Positions 48,297 through 64,000 of a stretch of DNA of 64,000 nt are shown here, in pieces. The first letter of the stretch is position 1. Every line of letters begins with the position of its first letter. Source of the DNA: Saccharothrix violaceirubra (GTDB lineage Bacteria > Actinomycetota > Actinomycetes > Mycobacteriales > Pseudonocardiaceae); the NCBI RefSeq assembly GCF_014203755.1, contig NZ_JACHJS010000001.1, forward strand, positions 4,154,001-4,218,000. Reading direction: 5' to 3'. A model generated the notes under the pieces. It saw only the letters and a list, made by a program, of their open reading frames with translations, made no database searches and was not told where the DNA came from. A program made the position numbers and the translations under genes.

Positions 48297-48902
48297 ATGT
48301 CGGACGACAGGTTGACGGCGCAGGAGCGGGCGACACTGCTGGTGTTGCTGGCCGAGGCGCGCGAACTCACCAACGCCGACCTGCGCGCCGTCGCGGGCCT
48401 CTCGCTCGACGGCGCGTCCCGCCGCCGCCTCAACGACCTGGACCTGGTGACCAGCACGAAGGTCGGCCGCGCGTACGTGCACGAACTGACCGACCGGGGC
48501 GCGGTCCGGTGCGCCGAGGAGTTCGGCGCCGAGCGCCCGGCGCGGTCGGGCTACGCGAGCGCCACGCTCTACGCCGTGCTCGCGGGCCTGCGCCGCTGGC
48601 TGGACGACACCGACCACGCGGTCGCCGACCTGTTCCGCCCCGACCTCGCCCGGCGCGTGCTCGACGCGCACCGGGCGGTGACCGGCGCGCACGGCCCGGT
48701 CCGGCTCGCCGACCTGCGCGACCGACTGGCGGACGTGCCGCGCGCGGACCTCGACCGGGTGCTCGACGCGCTGGCCCGGCGCGCGGGCGTGCACCTGTGG
48801 GCCGAGGCCGACCAGAAGACCTTGACCGACCGGGACCGCGACGCCGCGCTCGTCCTCGGCGGTTCCGCACGGCACGTGCTCGTCGTCGGGGAGGCCGGGT
48901 GA
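48297..48902 (+). CDS. Winged-helix-like partner of the double-ATPase gene
   Basis: This 201-residue cytoplasmic protein has an N-terminal ~75 residues (LTAQERATLLVLLAEARELT, then SRRRLNDLDLVTSTKVGRAY) that look like a winged-helix. The C-terminal half has helix-rich segments ([20 protein letters not shown]) that may form a second wing-like domain. There is no enzymatic motif. ATG 48297 is close to a GGGTGGGG ribosome binding site. The stop overlaps the GTG of the 1128-residue ATPase, so the two are coupled and probably act together, with this protein possibly giving DNA binding. Confidence 0.75.
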   Translation: MSDDRLTAQERATLLVLLAEARELTNADLRAVAGLSLDGASRRRLNDLDLVTSTKVGRAYVHELTDRGAVRCAEEFGAERPARSGYASATLYAVLAGLRRWLDDTDHAVADLFRPDLARRVLDAHRAVTGAHGPVRLADLRDRLADVPRADLDRVLDALARRAGVHLWAEADQKTLTDRDRDAALVLGGSARHVLVVGEAG

Positions 48903-51900
48903 ACGAGGAGGAACGCCACGCGCTCGCGTCGGTCCAGTTCAACTGGGCGGTCACGCCCGACGACATCTGGAGCCCGCTGGACCACCACGTCGACGGCCTG
49001 CACCAACGCGCGGCCGAGGACATCACGCACGCGGTCGCGGCGGCGGCGCGCAAGGCGGACGCCAACCCGACCGGCATCGTGCTGCGCGGCGAGCGCGGCG
49101 TGGGCAAGACCCACCTGCTGGGCTGGCTGCGGCAGCGCGTCCAGCAGGAGGGCGGCGCGTTCTTCCTGCTCAAGCTGCTCGACGAGCACTCGTTCTGGGC
49201 CGGTGCCGTGCACGGCGTCGTCGGCGGCCTGCTGACCAACGACCAGCTCGGCCGGATGCTCGACAAGCTCGCCGAGCGCACCGGCCACAACCACGAGTCC
49301 CGGTTGCGGCTGCGCGGCACGATCCCGGTCGCCCGCGCCGACGTCGACGGGCTGATCGACCGGCTCTACGACATCGACCCCCGGGTCGCCGTCGAGTGCC
49401 AGGACACGCTGCGCGCGCTCGTGCTCTACCGGGCGAAGGGGCAGCCCAGCGAGGTCGGACACGGGTTCCTGGTGCTGGCCGACGGCATCGACGAGGCCGA
49501 CCGCGAGGCGTGGGGCTTCCGCTCGCGCACCCGGCCCGCCCAGCTCGTGCTCAACGACCTGTCCCGGATCTTCGCGCTGACCGGGCCCGTGGTCATGGCG
49601 GTCGACCAGATCGACTCCGTGCTGACCCGCCCGGCGACCGGCGTCGACGAGGTCGAGCTGGCCGACCGGCTGGCCGACGGCCTGATGCGGCTGCGCGAGG
49701 AGACCCGGCGCACGATCCTGGTGGTGGCGTGCATCCCCGGCTCGTGGGACCTGATCGCGAACCGGGGCGTGAACTCGGCCGCCGACCGGTTCCGGGTGCT
49801 GGACCTGCGCACGGCCATGCCGAGCGCGTCCGTGGCGACGGCGATCGTGGAACGCCACCTGGCCGGTCTGTACGGCGAGATCGGCTTCACGCCGCCGTAC
49901 CCGACGTGGCCGGTGCTGCGGTCGGCGTTCGGCGCGGACGGGATCGCCCACTACACGCCGCGTCGCCTGCTGCAACGCGTGGACGACCACGTGCGCCGCT
50001 GCCTGGCCCGCGACGAGGTGGCGGAGCTGGCCGACTTCGACGCCGGTGAGGTGGACGCCGCGCCGACGCCGGTCGTACCGGTGGACCTCGGCGTGCTCGA
50101 CGAGCGGTTCGCCCGGCTGTGCGCGGCGGCCGACGTGACCGCGCCCCTGGACCACGAGTGGGAGGACAAACTCGTCCCGGCGCTGCTCAACGCGGCGTTG
50201 CGCTGCTACGTGGTGGAGCAGGGCGACCACGGGCACGACCTGTCGATCGACGCGCTGCCCGGCGGCAAACCTGCCCTGCACGCACGCCTGCGGCGGACGC
50301 TGGACGAGGCGACCGAGGACGAGGTGCACTGGAGCTTCCGCGCGATCGCCCACACCCACCCGAACGCCGTGCTGACCCGGTTGCGGTCGGCGTACCTGGA
50401 GGCGGGCCTGCGCGACGGCGGCAACCGCCACCTGGTGGTCCTGCGCGAGGCGCCGTTCTCCGGCGGGCCGCGCACGGCTCAGGCGGTCGGCGAGTTCCAG
50501 GCGGCGGGCGGTGTCGTGCTGCCGTTCGCCGACGAGGACCTGCGGGTGTTCGCCGCCCTGCGCACGCTCATCGACGAGTCGCCGGCGGGGTTGCGCGCCT
50601 GGCTGCGGGCCCGCCGCCCGGCGGGCTCGTCGGACCTGTTCACGCGGGTGTTCCCGGCGTCGACCCGACGGCCGTCCAAGGCTCGTGCCGACCTGTTCCA
50701 GCCCGAGGTCCCGCCCGCGCCCAAGCTGTCGGCGACCTCGACGGGCACGAACCTCAGACCCGTGGCCGTGGAGTCCGCGGACGCCCACCCAGAGCCGGCC
50801 CACCCAGAGCCGGCCCACCCGGCCGAGTCGACGGGTTTCCACCCGGTCCCGGCCGAGGCGACCGGCACCGGTTTCCGCCCGGTCGACCCCGGCGCACCGC
50901 TGCCCCGGCGGGAACCCGCCAAGCCGATGGGTTTCGCCCCGATCCCGGCGGAGTCGACCGGCACCCGCCTGACCCCCGTCACGCCGGAACCGACCGCCGT
51001 CGAGCCCGCCGGGTCCGACGGCCACCGCGTCGACCTGGCCGACGCCGGTGCCCCGGAACCGGTCCTCACCTTCGGCGCGAGCGTCGCCACCGGGACGCCG
51101 TTCACGGTGCCCCTGTCGGCCCTGCGCAAGCACGTCGCGGTGTTCGCCGGCAGCGGTTCGGGCAAGACCGTCCTGCTGCGGCGGCTGATCGAGGAGGCCG
51201 CGCTGGCGGGCGTGTCGTCCATCGTGATCGACACCAACAACGACCTGGCCCGCCTGGGCGACGAGTGGCCCGCGGAGCCTGCGGGCTGGGGCCCCGGCGA
51301 CGCCGACCGGGCCGCGCGCTACCACGCCGACACCGAGGTGGTCGTCTGGACGCCGTGCCGCGCGGCCGGACGTCCGCTGGTGCTCAACCCCTTCCCGGAC
51401 TTCGGCGGCGTGCTCGACGACCCGGACGAGTTCCGCATGTCGGTCGACGCCTCGGTGTCCGGCCTCATGCCGCGCACCGGCCTGGTCGGTCGCCGGATCG
51501 ACACCGGGCGTGCCGTGCTCACCCAGGCCCTGACCTGGTACGCGCGCCGGGGCGGCACCGACCTCGCGGGGTTCGTCGAGGCGCTGACCGACCTGCCCGA
51601 CGGCGTGGGCACGGTCCGCGACGCCACCCGGCTGGCCGCCGACATGGCCGACGGCCTGCACGCCGCGATGATCAACGACCCGGTGTTCGGCGGCGTGGGC
51701 GACCACGTCGACCCCGGCGTCCTGCTCACCCCGACCCCGGGCCGTCGGGCCAGGGTGTCGGTGATCAGTTGCGTCGGCCTGGCGACCGACGACCAGCGGC
51801 GGACGTTCGTCAACCACCTCCAGCTCGCGCTGTTCGCGTGGATCAGGCGCCACCCGGCGGGCGACCGGCCGCTGGGCGGGCTGCTGGTGCTCGACGAGGC

Positions 51901-52285
51901 GCAGACGTTCGTGCCGTCGCGCGGCGTGACCGCGTCGACCGAGAGCAGCCTGCGCCTGGCCACCCAGGCGCGGAAGTACGGCCTGGGCCTGGTCTACGCC
52001 ACCCAGGCGCCGAAGGCGCTGCACAACATGGTCACCGGCAACGCGGCCACGCAGTTGTTCGGCCGCCTCAACGCCGCGATCCAGATCCAGACCGCGCTCG
52101 ACCTGGCACGGGCCAAGGGCGGGCGCATCGACGACATCTCCCGCCTGCCCGCGGGCGTGTTCCACGCGTCCACGGAGGGCACCGGCTTCGTGAAGGTGCG
52201 GGCGCCGATGTGCCTGAGCCACCACCCCGCCGGCGCGTTGACCGAGTCGGAGGTCGTCGACCGCGCCGCCACCCTCCGGAGTTGA
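48899..52285 (+). CDS. Fusion of an AAA/STAND-like NTPase and a HerA/FtsK-like ATPase (1128 aa)
   Basis: This is one chain with two P-loop ATPases. The N-terminal module has Walker A GERGVGKTHLLGWL (residues 64-77), a Walker B candidate VVMAVDQIDSVL and a winged-helix-like tail. A Pro-rich linker (about 620-720) has repeated TGxxxxPVPAE-type units. The C-terminal module has Walker A AGSGSGKTVLLRRL (lysine 756), Walker B LLVLDEAQTFVPS (Asp999, Glu1000) and TESSLRLATQARKYGLGLVY, as in the HerA/DUF87 and TraG-like pumping ATPases. HerA-type enzymes move DNA. A nuclease or effector domain is not visible. The GTG start overlaps the upstream gene. Confidence 0.8.
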   Translation: MNEEERHALASVQFNWAVTPDDIWSPLDHHVDGLHQRAAEDITHAVAAAARKADANPTGIVLRGERGVGKTHLLGWLRQRVQQEGGAFFLLKLLDEHSFWAGAVHGVVGGLLTNDQLGRMLDKLAERTGHNHESRLRLRGTIPVARADVDGLIDRLYDIDPRVAVECQDTLRALVLYRAKGQPSEVGHGFLVLADGIDEADREAWGFRSRTRPAQLVLNDLSRIFALTGPVVMAVDQIDSVLTRPATGVDEVELADRLADGLMRLREETRRTILVVACIPGSWDLIANRGVNSAADRFRVLDLRTAMPSASVATAIVERHLAGLYGEIGFTPPYPTWPVLRSAFGADGIAHYTPRRLLQRVDDHVRRCLARDEVAELADFDAGEVDAAPTPVVPVDLGVLDERFARLCAAADVTAPLDHEWEDKLVPALLNAALRCYVVEQGDHGHDLSIDALPGGKPALHARLRRTLDEATEDEVHWSFRAIAHTHPNAVLTRLRSAYLEAGLRDGGNRHLVVLREAPFSGGPRTAQAVGEFQAAGGVVLPFADEDLRVFAALRTLIDESPAGLRAWLRARRPAGSSDLFTRVFPASTRRPSKARADLFQPEVPPAPKLSATSTGTNLRPVAVESADAHPEPAHPEPAHPAESTGFHPVPAEATGTGFRPVDPGAPLPRREPAKPMGFAPIPAESTGTRLTPVTPEPTAVEPAGSDGHRVDLADAGAPEPVLTFGASVATGTPFTVPLSALRKHVAVFAGSGSGKTVLLRRLIEEAALAGVSSIVIDTNNDLARLGDEWPAEPAGWGPGDADRAARYHADTEVVVWTPCRAAGRPLVLNPFPDFGGVLDDPDEFRMSVDASVSGLMPRTGLVGRRIDTGRAVLTQALTWYARRGGTDLAGFVEALTDLPDGVGTVRDATRLAADMADGLHAAMINDPVFGGVGDHVDPGVLLTPTPGRRARVSVISCVGLATDDQRRTFVNHLQLALFAWIRRHPAGDRPLGGLLVLDEAQTFVPSRGVTASTESSLRLATQARKYGLGLVYATQAPKALHNMVTGNAATQLFGRLNAAIQIQTALDLARAKGGRIDDISRLPAGVFHASTEGTGFVKVRAPMCLSHHPAGALTESEVVDRAATLRS
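50783..50820 (+). repeat. 15-bp tandem repeat in the linker of the double ATPase
   Basis: The unit GCCCACCCAGAGCCG occurs twice in full and a third time for eight bases. It encodes the His-Pro-Glu-Pro-Ala repeats of the Pro-rich linker. The number of units may vary between strains. Confidence 0.7.
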
Positions 52286-53198: not shown

Positions 53199-54959
53199 TC
53201 AGTTCAGGTCCAGCTTCGGGGAGGTGGCGTCCACCCACGCGGCCATGTCCAGGTAGGTCTCCAGACCCGTGCGCTCGACCGGCGACACGACCTCGGCCGA
53301 CGCCGCCGCACGCAGGAAAGCCGTGTCGAACAACGGTGTCACCGCGTGGTCGGACGACAGCAGGTCGGCCGCCTGCCCCTGGATCGCGGACACGTACGCG
53401 GACTGGTTCGTCGTCGGGTACATGGCCTTGCGACGTCCCACCACGCTCGGCGGCAACAACGGCGCGACGGCCGCCCGCAGCAGGCTCTTCTCCCGACCGT
53501 CGAACGTCGTCAGCGCCGACGGCACGCTGTACACGTACTCGACCAACGCCGTGTCGCAGAACGGCACCCGCACCTCCAGCCCGGTCGCCATGCTCATCCG
53601 GTCCTTGCGGTCCAGCAGCATCCGGTTCATCCGGGTCAGGTTCAGGTGGGTGGTGACGTCGGCGCCGGGCGGGACCTCGGCCAGCGCCTCCCGGTAGCGG
53701 TCGGCCACGTACGTCCCGACGTCCAGCGACGCCACCAGGTCCGGGTGGTACATGCGGTCGGTCATCAGCGGCGCCAGGGCGGCACGCCACGGGAACGTCG
53801 TCTTGGGTCTGCCGTCGTGGCACCAGCTGTAGCCGCCGAACAGCTCGTCCGCCGACTCCCCCGACAACGCGACCGTCGCCGTCTCCCGCACCGCCGTGAA
53901 CAGCAGGTGCAGCGACGTCGACAGGTCGCCCATCGAGATCGGCAGATCCCACGCCGCCACGGCCGTCGCCCGCACCGCCGGATCGGCCAGGCGTGCCGCG
54001 TCCAGCACCACCGCCCGGTGTTCCGTGCCCACGTGCGCGACCACGTCCCGCACGAACGGCGCGTCGGCGTCGGGCCGATTCACGTCGGCGACGTGCTCCT
54101 GCCCGGCGAACTCGACCGACATCGTGCGCGTGCCGGCGGGCGACAACACGGTGATCGCGCTGGAGTCGAGGCCGCCGGACAGCAGCGCGCAGTGCGGCAC
54201 GTCGGCCACCGACTGCCGCGCGACCGCCTCGCCGAGCAGCCGCCGCACGGTGGCCACGGTGGTCGGGAGGTCGTCGCGGTGCTCGCGGGCCGACAGCGTC
54301 CAGTACGTCCGTGTGCGCAGGCCCGCGCGGGTGGCCGTCAGGACCGTGCCGGGCAGGAGTTCGCGCATGCCCGACCAGAACGCGTGGCCCGGCGTCTTCA
54401 CCCGGGCCACGGCCTCGCGCAGGCCGTCGGTGTCCAGCACCCGGTCCACCGCCGGGTCGGCGTGCAGCGCTTTCGGTTCCGAACCGAACACCAGACCCGC
54501 CGGAGTCGGGTGGTAGTAGAGCGGTTTCACCCCCATTCGGTCGCGGATCAACACCAGCGCGTCGCGTCGGCCGTCCCACACGGCGAACGCGTACATGCCG
54601 TCGAGCCGTTCCGCGATCTCCTCGCCCCATTCCAGATATCCGCGCAACACGACTTCCGTGTCGCTCGCGGTGCGGAACGGGTGATCGCGCAGCCGGGCGC
54701 GCAGTTCGCGGTGGTTGTACACCTCGCCGCTGTAGACCAGCACGACCGGGCCGTCCGGCGTGCGCGCGACCATCGGCTGCCGCCCGCCCGGCAGGTCGAT
54801 CACCGCCAACCTGGTGTGCCCCAAGGCCACCGGGCCGTCCACCCACACGCCGGAGTCGTCCGGACCGCGCCGCGACAGCGTGGCCGTCATCGCCTCGATC
54901 ACCTCGGGCGACCGCGTGAGATCGCGGTCGAACGCCACCCGGCCGGTTATTCCGCACAT
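53199..54959 (-). CDS. AsnB-type glutamine-dependent amidotransferase (asparagine synthase family)
   Basis: This 586-residue protein has a class II glutaminase domain with catalytic Cys2 (MCGITGRVAF), YSGEVYNHRELRARL and MYAFAVWD. The C-terminal synthetase domain has the ATP pyrophosphatase loop SGGLDSS (261-267) and SGESADELFGGYSW. Such enzymes amidate Asp or other carboxylates, and in natural-product clusters they can amidate malonyl or acyl groups to give amide starter units or side-chain amides. Position beside a PKS and a second amidotransferase favours a biosynthetic role over housekeeping. It starts at ATG 54959 with AAGGGG eight bases upstream. Confidence 0.9.
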   Translation of the reverse strand: MCGITGRVAFDRDLTRSPEVIEAMTATLSRRGPDDSGVWVDGPVALGHTRLAVIDLPGGRQPMVARTPDGPVVLVYSGEVYNHRELRARLRDHPFRTASDTEVVLRGYLEWGEEIAERLDGMYAFAVWDGRRDALVLIRDRMGVKPLYYHPTPAGLVFGSEPKALHADPAVDRVLDTDGLREAVARVKTPGHAFWSGMRELLPGTVLTATRAGLRTRTYWTLSAREHRDDLPTTVATVRRLLGEAVARQSVADVPHCALLSGGLDSSAITVLSPAGTRTMSVEFAGQEHVADVNRPDADAPFVRDVVAHVGTEHRAVVLDAARLADPAVRATAVAAWDLPISMGDLSTSLHLLFTAVRETATVALSGESADELFGGYSWCHDGRPKTTFPWRAALAPLMTDRMYHPDLVASLDVGTYVADRYREALAEVPPGADVTTHLNLTRMNRMLLDRKDRMSMATGLEVRVPFCDTALVEYVYSVPSALTTFDGREKSLLRAAVAPLLPPSVVGRRKAMYPTTNQSAYVSAIQGQAADLLSSDHAVTPLFDTAFLRAAASAEVVSPVERTGLETYLDMAAWVDATSPKLDLN

Positions 54960-54975
54960 GTCGTCGACCCCTTAC

Positions 54976-54989
54976 CGGGGAATTCCCCG
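54976..54989. promoter_or_regulatory. 14-bp palindrome between the divergent amidotransferase genes
   Basis: CGGGGAATTCCCCG is a perfect palindrome 17 bp upstream of the AsnB start and about 100 bp from the PP-loop gene. It could be an operator for a cluster regulator outside the window, or an RNA hairpin in the AsnB leader. Confidence 0.4.
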
Positions 54990-55087
54990 TGTCCCTCACC
55001 CGATGGGTGGGCTGTGGTTGCGAGTGCTCTTCCGGTTCTGCTTCGGTTCGGACGACCGCCCGGAACGAAACGGAATGGGAAATCGCC

Positions 55088-56188
55088 ATGGACGCCGCAC
55101 GGACCGACACCGGCTGTTCCCGCTGCGGAATGCCGCTGACATTCGACGCGCTCGTGTCCGGGGTGCCCGGCGAGGCGGGGGTGTGCGGGCACTGCGCGAC
55201 CGCCGAACCGGTGCCGGCCGCGCCGCAGGTCGACCGCTCGGCCCTGCTGGACCGGATCTTCGCGGTCTACCGCGGCGCCCCGGTCGAGCCCGGCGAGGGG
55301 TACGAGTCGGTGCTGCGGACGCTGCCGAGCGCGGGCGGCGACATCGACGGCGTCGTCCTCTACAGCGGCGGCAAGGACTCGAGCTGGATGCTCGCCGACC
55401 TGGTCCACCGCGGCCTGAAGGTCGTCGCGTGGATGCTCGACCAGGGCTACCAGTCGCCGGCCGCGATCGACAACGCCCGCTTCCTGTGCGACCGGCTCGG
55501 CGTGGACCTGGTGATCGCCAAGCCGGAACGCGAACCCATGGACAACCTGTTCCGCATCGGGTTCGGCATTCCCGACCAGGGCGACCCGGAGCTGGTGCGG
55601 TCGGCGATGACGTTCGGGTCCGCGTGCTGGCCGTGCTTCGCCACGATCTCCGCGCGGGCCACGGTGTTCTGCCGCGAGAACGACGTGCCGTTCTGCTTCG
55701 TGGGCACGCACAAGGGCCAGAACCGGGTCGGCGACGAGACCGCGATGGCGCAGACCTTCCTGCCGCCGCTGTCCGCCGCGGCGGACGGCTTCGTCGCACC
55801 GCTGCGCGACCACGCCCGCACCCGCGCGCCCGAGTCGGCCGACCTGCTCGACACGGCGCCGTCCCGGACGATCCTGGTGCCGTTCTACGAGTTCGTGCCG
55901 AGGCCCGCACGCGAGGACCTGATCGCCGACCTGGAGGCGATGGGCTGGCGGGTGCCCCGCAACACGGGGTCGTGCAGCACCAACTGCATGATCAACGAGT
56001 TGGGCTGCCAGGTCATGCGACACCAGTACGGGTTCGACGTCTACCAGGTGTTCGAGGCACACGAACGGCGCCTGGACCCGGAGGCGGGCCCGGTCCGTCC
56101 CGGCCCGCTCGACGAGGCGGCGGTGCGGCGCGGCGCCCGGCTGATCGGCCTGACGCCCGAGGAGGAACGCGCTTTCGGTCTGGCCTGA
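55088..56188 (+). CDS. PP-loop amidotransferase, N-acetyl-sugar amidotransferase (WbpG/PseA)-like
   Basis: This 366-residue protein has an N-terminal zinc-ribbon-like motif with Cys10-x2-Cys13 and Cys33-x2-Cys36 (CSRCGMP, then GVCGHC). Next comes the ATP pyrophosphatase loop YSGGKDSSW (SGGKDSS 93-99). Further conserved Cys lie in GSACWPCFATI and GSCSTNCMINELGC. The arrangement matches N-acetyl sugar amidotransferases of LPS/flagellin pathways, where such proteins use ammonia from a glutaminase. It is divergent from AsnB and convergent with the PKS, so it may be a second amidation or a sulfur/amide step in the same cluster. ATG 55088 is used; an earlier ATG at 54989 has no ribosome binding site. 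Confidence 0.82.
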   Translation: MDAARTDTGCSRCGMPLTFDALVSGVPGEAGVCGHCATAEPVPAAPQVDRSALLDRIFAVYRGAPVEPGEGYESVLRTLPSAGGDIDGVVLYSGGKDSSWMLADLVHRGLKVVAWMLDQGYQSPAAIDNARFLCDRLGVDLVIAKPEREPMDNLFRIGFGIPDQGDPELVRSAMTFGSACWPCFATISARATVFCRENDVPFCFVGTHKGQNRVGDETAMAQTFLPPLSAAADGFVAPLRDHARTRAPESADLLDTAPSRTILVPFYEFVPRPAREDLIADLEAMGWRVPRNTGSCSTNCMINELGCQVMRHQYGFDVYQVFEAHERRLDPEAGPVRPGPLDEAAVRRGARLIGLTPEEERAFGLA

Positions 56189-56195
56189 CCGTTCG

Positions 56196-56289
56196 CGGAC
56201 CACCCAGGCCCGGACGGACACCGGGTGGTCCGGACGCTCCGACCACTTCGGGCGGTTCCGGTGGTCCGACCGCTTCGGCCGGACCACCG
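56196..56289. terminator. Two tandem hairpins between convergent PP-loop and PKS genes
   Basis: CGGACCACCC (56196-56205) pairs with GGGTGGTCCG (56223-56232). CGGTGGTCCG (56259-56268) pairs with CGGACCACCG (56280-56289). A fifth copy of the motif, CGGACCACCGG, lies at 56319-56329. The block separates two convergent genes, so bidirectional termination is the simplest role. Confidence 0.65.
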
Positions 56290-56370
56290 CGCCGCCGGCC
56301 GCACACCCACCACACGACCGGACCACCGGCCCACGAACCACCCGCGGACCGGCACCCCGACCCGACCCGA

Positions 56371-59300
56371 TCACCGGGCCGCCGGCCACTCGTCCACCAC
56401 CCGCGAGGTCTCCGCCACGCACCCGCCGACCACGTCGAAGTGGTCCCCGGACACCTCGCGCACGGTCACCTCCCCCGGCCACTGCGCCCGCCACGCCTCC
56501 GGGAACCCCTCGACCGGACGGCCCGCCCGCACCAACAGCGTCGGCACAGCCGGCGGCCCGACGGGCCAGTCGAACCCGGTGTACCAACTGGTCGGCAGCA
56601 GCCAGTCCGGTTCACCCCCGCCCGCCGCCCGCGCCACCAGCGCCGGCAGCAGATCGGCGACCAGGTCCCCCTGCGCCGCCGGGTGGTAGGAGTCGAGCAG
56701 CACCAAGGCCCGCGGCCGCAGCCGCGCCGCGAGCGCGTAGCCGACCAACCCACCCGACGAATGGCCGACCACGACGAACGGCCGGTCGCCGACGCACGAG
56801 CGCACCGCCGCCTCGTGCGTGTCGAGCAGCACGTCCAACGACGCGGGCAACGGCTCGCCCGGCGCGAAACCGGGCTGGCGCAGCACGAACACGTCCCGCA
56901 CACCCTGCCGCGACCGGGCGAAGCCCAGGAACGTCGACGGATCGGACGGTCCGAGGAACGACGTCAGGCACACCAACGGCACCTCGTGCGGCCCGTGCGC
57001 CACCCGGACCGGCGCGGACAGCGAGTCCGGCGGCGTGGTGTACGTCGGCAGGAACGAGGCCGCCGAGCGCAACGCACCGAACAGGGCCGGTACGCCGCCC
57101 GCCCGCGCCGCGTGCCCGAACAGGGACAGCAGCCTCCCGGTCGGCGCCGACGCCGGTGCCGCCACCGGCTCGGCGTCGAGTTCCTTGATCAGGTGCCGGG
57201 CCAGGTCCTCGGGCGTCGGGTGGTCGAACACGAGGGTCGCGGGCAGCAGCAGACCGGTGGCGTCGGCCAGCGTGTTGCGCAGTTCGACGGCGGTGAGCGA
57301 GTCGACGCCGAGTTCGGTCAGTCCGCCGTCGGGCGGGATCGCGTCCGGGTCGGCGAAGCCGAGCACCTCGGCGGCGGTACGCCGCACCAGGTCGAGGGCC
57401 ACCCGGTCGCGTTCGGCCGCGGGCAGGTCGACGGACAGGTTCACGCGGTCGGCCGTCCGGACCCGTCGGGTGGCACGCCGGCCGGTGCCGAACGGCTCGG
57501 GCAGCGTCCCGGTGTGCCGCATCGGGACCAGGAACGACTCCGGCCGGGCCAGGGCCGCGTCGAACAGCGCCAGTCCTTCCTCCGCGGACATCGGCACGAT
57601 CCCGGACCGGGCGATCCGCGTCCGGTCGCGCTCGTCGAGCGTGCCGGTCATGCCGCTGTCCGGCGCCCACATGCCCCACGCCAACGACGTGGCGGGCAAT
57701 CCGGAGGCGACCCGGTGCGCGCACAACGCGTCCAGGTAGCGGTTGGCCGCCGCGTACGCGCCCTGCCCCGGCCCGCCGAACAGGCCCGACGCCGAGGAGA
57801 ACACCACGAACGCCGCCAGGTCACCGGTCAGCTCGTGCAGGTTGCGGGCACCGTCGACCTTGGGCCGGAACACCCGGTCGAGGTGTTCGGCGGTGATCGA
57901 GTCGAGCACGCCGTCGTCGAGCACGCCGGCCGTGTGCACGACCGAGTCCACCGGGTGCTCGGCCAGCACGGCGGCGAGCGCGTCCCGATCGGCCACGTCG
58001 CACCGCACGGTCACCACCTCGACGTCCGTCCCCAGCTCGGCCGCGAGGTCCGCACAGTCCCTGCGGGACAACAGGACCAGTCGTCGCACGCCGTGCCCGG
58101 CCACCAGCCGGTGCGCGACCAGCCCGGCCAGGACACCGCTCGCACCGGTCACCAGCACCGTGCCGAGATCACGGCCGACGGGTTCGACCACACCGGCCGG
58201 CACCACAGACGGCGTGTGCACGCGGCCCGCGCGCACCGCGACCACCGGACCGGGATCACCCCCCGGCAGGACGCCGTCGGTGTCCACAAGGGACACCCGG
58301 CCGGGATTCTCGGACTGCGCGGACCGGACCAGCCCCCACGCGGCGGCCTGCGCCGGGCGGACATCCTCGCCCGCCACCGACACGGCGCCGCTGGTCACCA
58401 CGACGACGTGCCGCGCACCGGCCAACCGGTCGCGCAGGTCGGCCAGAACGGTCGCGGTGGTGACGCGCGGGTCTTCGTCGTCGACGACCCGCACCACGTC
58501 GACCTCGCGGTCGACGTCGGCGGGTTCGGCGGGCGTCCAGACGAGCCGGCTCAGCCCGTCGGGCACGCGGGTCAGGTCCGGCAGCGGCCGGGTCACCAAC
58601 CGCTCGACCGCCAGCACCGGCAGGCCCGCCGGGTCGGTCGCGGTCAACGCCATCCCGCCCGGCGTCGGCGTGATCCGCACGCGCAGGTCCGCGCGGCCCG
58701 ACGCGTACGCGGTCACCCCCGTCCACGAGAACGGCAGTCCGTCCAACGCGGGCGCGTCGCCCTCGCGCAGGGCCGAAGCCTGCAACGCCGCGTCCAACAG
58801 CGCCGGGTGCACGCCGTAGTGCGCGGCGTCGGCGCGGTCCGGCGCCGAGAGTTCGGCGAACACCTCCTCGCCGACCTGCCAGGCCCGCCGCACGCCCTGG
58901 AACGCGGGCCCGTAGCGGAAGCCGCGCTCGGCCGCCTGCTCGTAGAAGCCCTCGGTGTCCAGCGGTCGTCCGTCCGGCGGCCAGGGCACCGGATCCACGC
59001 CGCCGGGACGGCGCGGCCCGAGCGTGCCCGACGCGTGCCGCACCCACTCGTCGCCGACGGTGTCGATCTCGATCGCGCGCCGGCCGCGCTCGTCGGGTTC
59101 GCCGACCCGCACCCGCAGCCGCACGCCCGCCTCCGGCACCACCAGCGGTGCGCCGATGGTCAGGTCCTCGACCCGCTCGGCACCGACCTCCGCGCCCGCG
59201 CGGACCGCGAGGTCGAGGAAGGCCGTGCCGGGCAGCAGCACCCGGCCGGCGATCACGTGGTCGACCAGCCACGGCGCGGTCGACGTGGACAGCAGTCCGG

Positions 59301-62172
59301 TGAACTCGACCGTGTCCGGTCCGTGCACGGCGGCGCCGAGCAGCGGGTGGCCGGCGTCGACGAGCCCGAGTCCGGCGGCGGCCCGCCGGGTCGACCCGGC
59401 GGTGGGCGCCAGCCAGTAGCGGCGGTGCCGGAACGGGTAGGTGGGCAGGTCGACCGTACCGACGCCCCAGGTCCGGGTGAGCGCGGCCCAGTCGGTGCGC
59501 CCGCCCGCGACGTGCCGCCGGGTCACGGCGGCGAGCAGCGTGCGCGGCTCGGACTGGTTGGCCCGCAGCACCGGCACCGCGCGGTCGGGGCCGAGCCGGT
59601 CGGCGACAAGGGCGGACAGCACCGCGTCCGGCCCGACCTCGACGACCGTGCGCACGCCGCGTTCGGCCAACGTGTCGACGACGTCGCCGAACCGCACGGC
59701 CGCACGCAGGTGCCGCACCCAGTAGTCCGGTGTGGACAGTTCGGCGCCGGCGACCGCACCGGTGGTGTCGGACACGACGGGGATCCGGGCCGGGTGCCAG
59801 TGGAGCCGTTCGGCCACGTGGCGGAACTCGTCGAGCACGGGCTCGACCCGGTGCGAGTGGAACGCGTGGCTGGTACTCAGCCTTCGGGTCTTGCGGCCCC
59901 GCGAGGCGAACACGGCGGCGGCGGCCACGACCGCGGCCTCGTCGCCGGAGAGCACCACGGACTCCGGTCCGTTGACCGCCGCGAGCGACACACCGTCGTC
60001 GAGCGCGTCGGCGGCCTCGGCCTCGGTCGCCTGGACCGCGATCATCGCGCCGCCCTCGGGCAGCGACTCCATGAGCCGGCCGCGCTCGGCGACCAGCCGG
60101 CACGCGTCGGGCAGGTCGAGCACCCCGGCGACGTGCGCGGCGACCAGGCCGCCGACCGAGTGCCCGGCGACGTAGTCGGGACGGATGCCCCAATCGCCCA
60201 GCAGCCGGGCCAGCGCGACCTCCAGGGCGAACAGCGCGGGCTGGGTGAACGCGGTCCGGTGCAGCCGCTCGTCGTCGCCGGCCAGCACCTCGCGCAGGTC
60301 GGGCACGTGCGGGTCGAGGTGGTCGAGCACGGTCTCCCAGGCGGTCGCGAACTCCGGCACGGCCGCCGCCAGCTCCCGCCCGGCACCGATCCGCTGCGCG
60401 CCCTGCCCGGTGAACGCGAACGCCGTCGACCCGTGCGTGCCGGCCGGTCCGGGTTCGAGCCCGTCGAGGGCCCGGACGAGTTCCTCGCGCGTCCCCGCGA
60501 CCACCGCGACCCGGTGGCTCAGGTGTGCCCGGGTCGTGGCCAGGGACCGGGCGAGGACAGGCAGTCCGACGTCGCCCCGGGCCAGGTCGGCGACCCGGCC
60601 GAGCTGGACCCGCAACGCCTCGGCCGAGCGTGCGGACACCACGAAGGGCCACGGACCAGCAGGCGTCGGACCGTCCGCCCGCACCGCGTCTTCCCGCGAC
60701 AGGCAGTCGGAGTCCCCTTGCACCGCTTCGGAAACGGCGCGAGCACCGTCCACTTCGGAGGCTTGGCGTCGCGGGGGCTCCTCCAGGATCGCGTGCGCGT
60801 TGGTGCCGCTCACCCCGAACGCCGACACGGCCGCCCGACGCGGACGCCCGGTCTCCGGCCACGGCCGGGTCGCGGTGACCAGTTCCACCGCGCCCGTCGT
60901 CCAGTCGACCTCCTCGGTCGGCACGTCCACGTGCAGCGTCGGTGGCACGACGCCGTGCCGCATCGCCATGATCATCTTGAGGACGCCCGCCACCCCGGCC
61001 GCCGACGCGGTGTGCCCGATGTTCGACTTCACCGACCCGAGCAGGCACGGTTCGGCCCGGTCGCGGCCGTAGGTCGCCAGCAGCGCACGGGCCTCGATCG
61101 GGTCGCCCAGCCGGGTGCCCGTGCCGTGCGCCTCGACCACGTCCACGTCCGCCGCGTCCAGCCCCGCCTCGCGCAGCGCCTGCCGGATGACGCGCTGTTG
61201 CGCCGCGCCGCTCGGCGCCGTGAGGCCGTTGCTCGCGCCGTCCTGGTTGACCGCGCTGCCCCGGACCACGGCGAGGATCTCGCGCCCGTGGCGCACCGCG
61301 TCCGAGAGCCGTTCCAGCACCAGCAGGCCGACGCCCTCGGCCCAGCCCGTGCCGTCGGCCCGGCGGGCGAACGGCTTGCACCGGCCGTCCGGCGCCAGCC
61401 CGCGCTGCCGGCTGAACTCGACGAACGCGCCCGGCGCACCCGCCACCGACACCCCGCCCGCCAGCGCGAGCGACGTCTCGCCGGACCGCAGCGAGCGGCA
61501 CGCGAGGTCGAGCGTCACCAGGGACGCCGAACAGGCGGTGTCCACGGTGAGCGCCGGACCGGTCAGGCCCAGCGTGTAGGCGATCCGCCCGGACGCCACC
61601 GCCAACGCCATCCCGGTCAGCAGGTGGCCCTCCACCTGCGGCGGCGCGTCGAAGATCGGCGGCCCGTACGCGCTGCCCGTCACGCCCGCGAAGACGCCGG
61701 TCGCCGTGCCGCGCAACGACGTCGGGTCGATCCGGGCGCGTTCGAACGCCTCCCACGCGCACTCCAGCAGCTGCCGCTGCTGGGGGTCCATCGCCAACGC
61801 CTCGCGCGGCGAGATGCGGAAGAACTCCGCGTCGAAGTCGCCCGCACCCGCGAGGAACCCGGCTTCGCGCACGTAGCTGTGCCCGGACCGCTCCGGGTCC
61901 GGGTCGAACAGGTCGGGGTCCCAGCCCCGGTCGGTCGGGAACGGCGAGATCGTGTCCCGGCCGCGCGCGACGACCTCCCAGAGGTCCTCGGGCGAGGCGA
62001 CGCCGCCGGGGAAGCGGCAGGCCGCGCCGATCACCGCGATCGGCTCGGCCGCCCGGCCCTCGACCTCGGCGAGGCGGTCCTGCACCCGGCCGAGTTCGGC
62101 CGCGGCGCGGCGCAGGTAGTCGCGGAGCCTGTGCTCGACGTCCATGGTCGTCCGTTCGTCGGTGGTGCTCAC
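56371..62172 (-). CDS. Type I modular PKS, terminal module KS-AT-DH-KR-ACP-TE
   Basis: This 1933-residue polyketide synthase starts with a short docking region ([20 protein letters not shown]). KS: Cys214 in DTACSAS, His349 in EAHGTGT, His387 in KSNIGH. AT: Ser672 in GHSVGG, with HAFH (769-772) predicting malonyl-CoA. DH: His972 in [10 protein letters not shown] and Asp1127 in [19 protein letters not shown] for NADPH, LDD (1418-1420, B-type stereochemistry), Ser1460 and Tyr1473. ACP: Ser1625 in [13 protein letters not shown]: Ser1805 in GHSSGG. No ER is present. It should add a malonate unit, make an E-alkene and release the chain. GTG 62172 overlaps the upstream PKS stop; ATG 62145 is an alternative. 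Confidence 0.93.
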
Positions 62173-64000
62173 AGTCGGCTGTCCAGCAGGGCGAACAGTT
62201 CGTCGTCGGTGATCTCCGCGGCGTCCGCGGGCAGGGCGGGGCCGTCGAGTTCCGCGCACACCAGGTCGGCCAGCGCGGCGGGCGTCGGGTGCTCGAACAC
62301 CACCGTCGAGGGCAGGCGCAGTCCGGTCGCCGCGTTGATCCGGTCACGCAGCCGGACGGCGGCGAGCGACTCGAAGCCCAGGTCACGGAAGGCGACGTCC
62401 GGGTCGACGCCGTCCGGCCCGACGTGCCCGAGGATCACGGCGGTGTGCCCGAGGACGAGGTCGAGCACGGCCGCGAGCCCCGACGGCGCGGCCGACGCGA
62501 CGGGTTCGGGCACCTCCACCCGGGACACCGCCGGGACCCCGGAGTTGTCCAGCCAGTACCGGCGGTGCTGGAACGCGTACGTCGGCAGGTCGACCCGCCG
62601 CGGCGAAAGGCCCGCGAACACCGGCGTCCAGTCGACCTCGACCCCGTGCGCGTGCGCCTCGCCGAGCGCGGCCAGGAACCGCTCCGGGCCGCCCTCGTCA
62701 CGCCGCAGCGTGGCGATCGCGGTGGCCGGCACGGCGTCGACGATCGACGGACCGAGGACCGGGTGCGGACTCGCCTCGACGAACAGCCGGTGCCCGTCGT
62801 CGGCCATGGCCCGCACCGCGCGGTCGAACCGGACCACCTGGCGCAGGTTGCGGAACCAGTAGTGCGCGTCCAGGGACCGGGTGTCGAGTGCGGTACCGGT
62901 CGTCGACGAGTAGTAGGGCACCTCCGACTCCTTCGGCGTGATGTGCCCGATGCGCGCGACGAGGTCGTCGGCCAGCACGTCGACGGCCATGGTGTGCGAG
63001 GCGTAGCCGACCGGCAGCCGCGAGGTACGCACGCCGTGCGAGGCGCAGTGCGCGAGCAGCGCGCCGACCGCCTCCGGCTCGCCCGCCACCACGGTCGAGG
63101 CGGGCCCGTTGACGGCGGCGACGGACACGTCGGCGGTGATCAGCGCGGACACCTCGTCGACGGGCGACGCGATCCACGCCATCGCGCCCGGCGCGGCCAG
63201 GTCCGCCAACGCCAGCGCCCGCACCGCCACCACCTTCGCGGCGTCCGCCAGCGACAGGGCGCCCGCCACGCACGCCGCCGCGATCTCGCCCTGGCTGTGC
63301 CCGACGACCGCGTCCGGCCGCACGCCGTGCGCCCGCCACAGCCCCGCCAGCGCGACCATCACCGCGAACAACGCGGGCTGCACGACGTCCACCCGCGCGA
63401 AGTCGGCGTCCTCCCGACGCAGCAGGTCGGACACCGACCAGCCCAGGTGCGGCGCCAGCGCCTCGCCGCACTCGTCGAGCAGGGTCGCGAACACCGGGGA
63501 CCGCCGGGCGAGACCGGCCGCCATGCCCACCCACTGCGATCCCTGGCCGGGGAACACGAACGCGGTCCGGCCACCGCCCGCGACCCCGCGCGCGGCCTCG
63601 ACCGGCCGGTCCGCCGCGAGCGCGTCCAGGTCACGGCGCAGGGTGTCGTGATCACGGGCGACGAGCACGGCCCGGTGCCGCAGGTGGGCCCGGGTCGTCA
63701 GCAGCGAGTGCGCCACGTCGACCGGCCGCCGGCCGTCCAGGTGGTCGCGCAGCCGGGCGGCCTGGGCGCGCAGCGCGGCCGGGCTGTGCGCGGACAACGC
63801 GAACGGCAACTCGATCGGTGGCACGGGCACCGGCGGCGGTTCGGGTTCGTCGCCCTGCTCGAACACCACGTGCGCGTTCGTTCCGGCGACCGCGAACGCC
63901 GACACGGCCGCCCGCCGCGGCCGGCCGGTCTCCGGCCACGGCACCGACGCCGCGGCCACCCGCAGCGCCCCCGCCGACCAGTCGACCTCCCGGGTCGGCG
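62169..64000 (-). CDS. Type I modular PKS, 3' end: (KS)-AT-ACP, cut by right window edge
   Basis: The frame is open to the right edge. Visible parts are the last KS strand ([17 protein letters not shown]), an AT with VFPGQGSQW, the nucleophile in [14 protein letters not shown] (Ser codon near 63296) and YASH (about 62994-63005), which predicts methylmalonyl-CoA. A post-AT linker follows, then an ACP with [12 protein letters not shown]. There are no KR, DH or ER domains between AT and ACP, so the beta-keto group is kept. The C-terminal tail ([14 protein letters not shown]) is a typical short docking end. Its TGA overlaps the GTG of the next PKS, so it acts immediately before the terminal module. 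Confidence 0.93.

Follow-up and report, generated by a model that had tools for sequence, protein, structure and literature searches.

A winged-helix protein and an AAA+ HerA/FtsK-type ATPase of Saccharothrix violaceirubra as the probable core of a modular counter-invader system

The gene pair and its predicted domains

A stretch of 64,000 nucleotides from the actinobacterium Saccharothrix violaceirubra (NZ_JACHJS010000001.1, positions 4,154,001 to 4,218,000; hereafter the window) carries on its + strand two overlapping genes, a small one encoding a putative DNA-binding protein and a large one encoding a protein with two ATPase halves. The small gene (48297-48902, 201 aa) starts with ATG, and the large gene (48899-52285, 1128 aa) starts with GTG and overlaps the former by 4 bases. 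Both open reading frames (ORFs) are present as described in an earlier note on this DNA, and their GC content at third codon positions, 0.97 for the small and 0.96 for the large gene, is typical of genuine genes in the GC-rich host genome. At E ≤ 0.001, the small protein has 151 homologues and the large protein 1845, matches to one half included, of which 120 are listed.

The N half of the large protein (residues 28-590, 48980..50668) is predicted to comprise an AAA+ ATPase, most likely of the Orc/Cdc6 type, followed by an alpha/beta domain (residues ~448-541 or ~422-541) and a short helical end. Its Walker A motif, GERGVGKT (residues 64-71, 49088..49111), is recognized from the sequence and from conservation, K70 and T71 being kept in 79 of 80 aligned homologues. 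A Walker B-like strand (predicted at residues 231-235) leads into DQID (residues 231-239 in all, 49589..49615), in which D236, Q237 and D239 are invariant (80/80). The C half (residues 719-1128, 51053..52282) is a predicted HerA/FtsK-type motor, with a Walker A motif GSGSGKT (residues 751-757, 51149..51169), a Walker B motif ending in DEAQ (residues 999-1002, 51893..51904, within LLVLDEAQ at 995-1002), and a segment from R1025 to Q1036 (51971..52006) that provides a candidate arginine finger and sensor-1 glutamine. This combination is described as a hallmark of HerA/FtsK clade motors in a recent study (Rakesh, Aravind and Krishnan, 2024, PMC10853773). K756, T757, D999, E1000, R1025 and Q1036 are conserved in all 80 aligned homologues. 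The two complete P-loop ATPase sets that the earlier note had read in one chain are thus located and kept in 79-80 of 80 homologues.

Pfam assigns AAA_22/AAA_16 to the first half of the large protein and DUF87, the central domain of HerA, to the second, and a PDB profile search with the large-protein alignment returned only HerA-type chains at E ≤ 0.001. The earlier note was right in calling the C half HerA-like. The N half had been called AAA/STAND-like before; its AAA+ part stands, and the domain is here specified further as most likely Orc/Cdc6-type on the basis of its predicted structure. In HerA proper, the motor is preceded by an N-terminal HAS-type barrel. Judged from the predicted structure, the large protein does not appear to be HerA proper: it has no such barrel, its linker is disordered, and the rest of its N half is composed of the AAA+ ATPase with the alpha/beta domain.

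The two halves are joined by a Pro-rich linker (residues 591-717, 50669..51049) that is predicted to be disordered (pLDDT ~30). The repeats noted in it before are real, although the exact DNA repeat is short (a 15-bp unit in 2.5 copies); related peptides containing STGF/TGT recur by eye. The window linker is the longest among 80, with 162 residues between matched anchors versus 37-133 in the other 79 rows (133 in L064 and 115 in L065, the numbers denoting loci of the comparison described below).

Residues 1-78 of the small protein form an N-terminal MarR-like winged helix according to structure comparison of its predicted fold, in keeping with the coupled DNA-binding-like gene proposed earlier. 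Residues ~115-200 make up a second compact domain, which is winged-helix-like by element order alone. A PDB profile search with the small-protein alignment gave no match at E ≤ 0.001. Unrelated proteins, some of them plasmid-borne, also contain this C-terminal domain, either as a single copy by itself or in tandem, with two or more copies in some (L032 5398-7575, L033 5761-6195 and L136-L138, on Amycolatopsis and Nonomuraea plasmids and at other loci).

Distribution of the pair and exchange of its partner genes

The pair was compared over 80 loci, of which 79 are distinct (L003 is the same as L066). They comprise the 74 loci with a large gene out of 77 small-gene stretches fetched, together with L002, L003, L019-L021 and the window. 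L136-L138, which match in the C-terminal domain only and have no large gene, were dropped before this count, and the partial C-terminal matches G324:C1:319212 and G360:C8:89111 were left out of the sample. Genes in the relatives were called by a custom script, and operons were then tabulated. The pairing with the 201-aa protein holds whichever of the two is searched for: the large gene lies directly after the small gene in 74/77 fetched loci, the small gene precedes all seven full-length large-protein matches outside the own genome (L002, L003, L019-L021, G074 and G204, the latter two being genomes), and the overlap at the junction is exactly 4 bases in 71 of the 79 measured.

Of 200 genomes of the family, 60 carry the small gene (E ≤ 1e-6), as do 9 of 61 of the order, both counts including the own genome. 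This patchy presence disfavours a conserved housekeeping role, and with it the DNA-maintenance alternative of the earlier note. The large protein matches 14 of 246 genomes of the phylum, and both of its halves are covered in three only (the own genome, G074 and G204); the C-half-only relatives in the other 11 (26-32% identity, frames of 806-1045 aa) were rejected as homologues of the fusion and not counted. L008-L010, L012, L014 and L016, read in the right frame, form a separate actinobacterial HerA-like family whose C-terminal part looks coiled-coil-like by eye. In a plasmid collection, four records matched, one of them covering just 13% of the query, and the other three hold full-length homologues. 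Two of these look chromosomal, because the Tsukamurella record LR134464 carries a ribosomal protein operon and the Nonomuraea record is 11.85 Mb long. The third is pMaq22A_1p of the alphaproteobacterium Methylobacterium aquaticum, and hence the module has crossed phyla at least once. The Tsukamurella record is labelled a plasmid yet bears S10/spc genes, and at L019 (12293-17261) its ribosomal protein operon is interrupted between rplN and rpsQ by a DUF559 gene and the pair, accompanied by VapBC and a DEAD-box helicase. A phage origin of the pair was rejected, as 50,697 phage records gave no match and 142 candidate IMG/VR stretches gave one weak match to the C half.

An effector-like gene adjoins the pair in 71 of the 80 loci, and the window is among the nine without one. 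By partner type, the loci divide into TIR + KGGVGR (43), DUF4365 + PDC-M02B, or M02AB (15), DUF559 (7), AbiU/AIPR (4), WD40 + Trypco1 (2) and none (9), so that a nuclease-type gene is present in 22 (DUF559 in 7 and DUF4365 in 15). Each type occupies its own positions around the pair. In the TIR type, the KGGVGR MinD-like ATPase gene is found in 43 loci, at -2 in 42 of them, and a TIR gene accompanies it in 41, mostly at -3. In the M02AB type, DUF4365 is at -3 and PDC-M02B at -2 in 15 loci. The DUF559 gene is at -2, AbiU/AIPR is at +1, and the gene for a WD40 protein with Trypco1 is divergent from the pair (L104 and L107). One or two representatives of each type were identified by profile and the other members were assigned via blastp clustering. 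The E-values of the representatives were 1.7e-12 for TIR_2, 4.2e-45 for KGGVGR (NF047398), 1.4e-41 for AIPR, 8e-113 for AbiU, 3.2e-61 for PDC-M02A, 2.6e-72 for PDC-M02B, 5.1e-9 and 4.5e-13 for DUF559, and 1.1e-17 for Trypco1. The WD40 protein was assigned from WD40/propeller models in the profile scan (best 25 of 45 families), and its N-terminus looks trypsin-like by eye. From their sequences, these partner families are defence-type families.

Putative catalytic residues of the partners are largely kept. E89 of the TIR protein is conserved in 39/39 aligned sequences (the cluster has 43 calls; short pieces and L125 were omitted), and E287 and D289 of the DUF559 protein are conserved in 7/7. The motif (D/E)xQ(V/I)K, of which Q and K are the proposed catalytic residues of a DUF4365 nuclease in a short Argonaute system (PMC10810196), is present in 11 of 15 DUF4365 calls, the rest being two truncated calls, one with R for K and one diverged. 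The outer surroundings also vary: by shared flanking families, the M02AB loci lie in 9 contexts, the DUF559 loci in 4, the AbiU loci in 3, the loci without a partner in 8, and the two WD40/Trypco1 loci in 2.

Some loci depart from this scheme. Among those counted as without a partner, L088 has an upstream HTH/NTPase-like gene, L123 and L130 adjoin genes that are aminotransferase- and MutS-like by eye, and a divergent SEFIR/TIR gene adjoins L089; L125 was counted as M02AB, yet it has an extra TIR-cluster gene upstream. TIR-type loci (L106/L128 and others) often have further conserved downstream genes (clusters c4, c5, c6, c7 and c11), which are HTH-, vWA- and NB-ARC-like by eye and may point to a conflict cluster of larger size or simply to synteny.

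Effector loss in the window clade

In a tree of 79 large proteins (a quick method with SH-aLRT support only and some long branches), the effector states change 12 times, compared with a mean of 33.8 for shuffled states and a possible minimum of 5. Effector states thus cluster on the tree, yet switch repeatedly. The window copy groups with L064 (G318) and L065 (G354), all without effector, in a set with support 98, which lies within a set with support 100 that consists of five M02AB loci and three without effector. Since the window and its two effector-less congeners are nested in an M02AB clade, they are most simply explained by an ancestor that lost M02A/B, and the effector genes of this clade were probably lost from a DUF4365/M02-type operon. 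Three genomes of the genus retain solo copies, which lie in two different contexts. The TIR type occurs in four other congeneric genomes (G382, G403, G465 and G477), and G354 bears two copies of the module, one solo (L065) and one with TIR + KGGVGR (L085). G318 and G354 also have DUF4365 genes, which were rejected as partners: they lie away from the pair and show no kinship to M02A (tblastn, E 0.01).

Effectors encoded apart from the pair in the window genome were sought for DUF559, DUF4365, M02B and KGGVGR/TIR. DUF4365 and M02B have no match anywhere in this genome; the window pair is thus not PDC-M02, as both M02A and M02B genes are absent. DUF559 likewise has no match, a weak negative obtained with a single distant query protein, and a second small/large core is absent. 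Two weak KGGVGR-like matches were found. The first (L155 8914-10853, G000:C1 ~3479913-3481852) follows a TIR gene and is not accompanied by a small/large core. In this pair, SLGGSVRE replaces KGGVGR in the ATPase, and the TIR part, called at just 141 aa, keeps its LAEW motif. The second, weaker match (L156 7366-8664, G000:C1 ~403365-404663) showed no neighbouring TIR kin when searched in the same way; it adjoins a gene whose start looks P-loop NTPase-like by eye.

Proposed function, related systems and rival explanations

The conserved pairing and the exchange of defence-type partners lead us to consider it probable that the pair serves as a conserved core in a modular counter-invader (immune) system; the window copy would most likely be a core retained without effector, acting alone or slowly decaying. 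The analysis establishes gene structure and order, predicted folds, motifs, pairing, exchange of neighbours and tree position; the defence role is inferred by analogy, and the anti-mobile-element role suggested in the earlier note is plausible. The small protein would bind DNA or a DNA-bound partner via its winged helix, and together with it the AAA+ N half, probably of Orc/Cdc6 type, may serve as a nucleotide-gated switch or as a loader onto invading DNA, while the HerA/FtsK-type C half on its flexible tether could form a DNA-pumping ring. The core might hold the co-encoded effector inactive until engagement of invading DNA licenses whichever effector is present, after which nucleases would cut DNA, TIR would deplete NAD, and AbiU-type partners would cause abortive infection. 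Recognition, pumping and activation are modelled here on DUF4297-HerA (PMC11291478) and on the proposal for capture systems (PMC10853773). A bolder proposition, which we hold only tentatively, is that of an actinobacteria-centred plug-and-play immune chassis, in which the winged-helix adaptor and the Orc/Cdc6-HerA fusion trigger chemically unrelated effectors (a TIR NADase, two nuclease families, AbiU/AIPR and perhaps WD40/Trypco1), while effector-less copies would fight invaders by DNA pumping on their own. The immune-core reading itself would give a number of orphan or candidate defence families, namely PDC-M02A/B, the KGGVGR/TIR pairs, an AbiU branch and DUF559 proteins, one shared ATPase core as a common, testable trigger. 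The natural swaps allow tests of how one HerA/FtsK motor could activate effectors unrelated to each other, and the effector-less copies raise the question of whether the motor alone protects.

Among known systems, the Orc/CDC6-containing class of HerA/FtsK capture systems (PMC10853773) fits the core, so that the earlier statement that no named system could be assigned was too strong. Like this class, the pair has an AAA+ ATPase of probable Orc/CDC6 type, a HerA/FtsK motor with candidate sensor-1 glutamine and nearby arginine finger, and a winged helix-turn-helix (wHTH) component, to which many relatives add a restriction-type nuclease; according to the same source, the domains of capture systems may be spread over one or several polypeptides. 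The class has an inactive restriction endonuclease (REase) between the AAA+ core and the wHTH; the predicted alpha/beta domain of the large protein, whose order of elements, as we read it in the predicted structure of the full protein, resembles a restriction endonuclease core, might correspond to it. An active REase was not found beside the window pair. Beyond the text of PMC10853773 considered here, the partners also include TIR + KGGVGR, DUF4365 + PDC-M02B, AbiU/AIPR and WD40 + Trypco1. By analogy, the pair may work like a capture system, as a core of the capture type that draws on a broader range of exchangeable partners and, in the window, has no effector. No literature describing this partner set on one core was found in open-access text, among the titles listed.

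Other systems share single features with the pair. In DndFGH/DptFGH, the C-terminal motor of DndH (PDB 7es4) is the closest to the HerA/FtsK motor of the large protein, whereas the SF2-type domain, target recognition domains, inactive methyltransferase and REase that DndH has in the same chain are not seen in the pair. Both DUF4297-HerA and Sir2-HerA (Nezha) rely on a HerA-type ATPase whose effector is a separate protein, as do the relatives of the pair, and assembly of DUF4297-HerA switches on nuclease and ATPase alike (PMC11291478). In those HerA chains, the alignment and with it the motor begins at about residue 110-150, behind a barrel that the pair replaces by the AAA+ half and the disordered linker. 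Their partners differ as well: the scanned partner representatives belong to families other than SIR2 or DUF4297. Short Argonaute systems (DUF4365-APAZ, TIR-APAZ and SIR2-APAZ) likewise combine a single sensor chassis with effectors that can be exchanged, nucleases or NADases (PMC10810196), but their sensor is an RNA-guided Argonaute, whereas here it is an ATPase pair. In PADLOC, the best profile for the C half is mad8 of the MADS system (2.5e-21 over residues 724-1104). This match is limited to the C-half motor, and the proteins scanned, among them six partner proteins and a homologue each of the small and the large protein, matched no other mad model.

Several points weigh against the immune-core reading. 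Only one structure-comparison row supports the Orc/Cdc6 label of the N half, and Foldseek gives other AAA+ proteins (Rix7, p97, Cdc48 and ClpB) similar E-values. The TIR + KGGVGR type, which accounts for 43 of the 80 loci, is a single linked outer context, and therefore vertical synteny may account for part of the association. The presence of the small gene in 80/80 loci is partly by construction, as 74 of them were found via this gene. The window copy itself is without effector and without evident defence neighbours. Finally, dN/dS of the large gene (NG86) is higher among the three solo copies (0.42-0.51) than in five M02AB pairs from their clade (0.24-0.32); the values are 0.31-0.45 in five mixed pairs (solo versus M02AB), 0.09-0.29 in other effector-bearing pairs, and 0.03-0.73 for the flanking genes of L064/L065. 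This last difference, together with the loss of the effector in the window clade, a genome without DUF4365 or M02B, the longest linker of all and the degenerate ATPase motif of the TIR/KGGVGR-like pair elsewhere in the genome, would suit a decaying remnant whose core has been functionless and drifting since effector loss. We regard such a remnant as rather unlikely, because both ORFs are intact with all nucleotide-binding motifs kept, dN/dS stays below 1, and solo copies persist in three genomes and two contexts. Moreover, dN is equal and dS lower in the solo pair (window/L064, dN 0.279 and dS 0.543; L063/L066, dN 0.279 and dS 0.867), and relaxed constraint is just hinted at because lower dS, not higher dN, drives the difference. 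Function alone and slow decay of the window pair both fit these data.

The core might instead work with an effector in trans, such as the TIR + KGGVGR-like pair of L155, which is kin of a known partner, keeps LAEW and lies in a genome without a second core. With its altered ATPase motif and short TIR part, with the window core in the M02 clade rather than the TIR clade, and with no TIR kin at the second KGGVGR-like gene, this arrangement seems quite improbable. A DNA-maintenance or segregation module (FtsK/ParA-like) without defence role, whose neighbours are bystanders, is also improbable in view of the patchy presence given above, the swapping of TIR, nuclease and AbiU genes within the operon and the kept catalytic motifs of these effectors. 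Regulation of neighbouring biosynthetic genes would accord with the MarR-like winged helix and with the polyketide synthase (PKS)-like genes seen nearby by eye, but homologues occur in many unrelated contexts and a HerA-type motor is no transcription regulator, which leaves this explanation highly improbable.

In the surroundings of the window pair, no adjoining nuclease, Sir2 or DUF4297 gene was seen and no defence genes were noticed when translations were read by eye, without a profile scan. The absence of a partner nuclease recorded in the earlier note thus holds for the window, but it is peculiar to a few copies, given the effector-like genes beside most of the others. From their translations by eye, the nearby genes include an asparagine-synthase-like gene (53199-54959, - strand) and an amidotransferase-like gene (54989-56188, + strand), and the region 53199-62259 also holds a PKS-like frame on the - strand.

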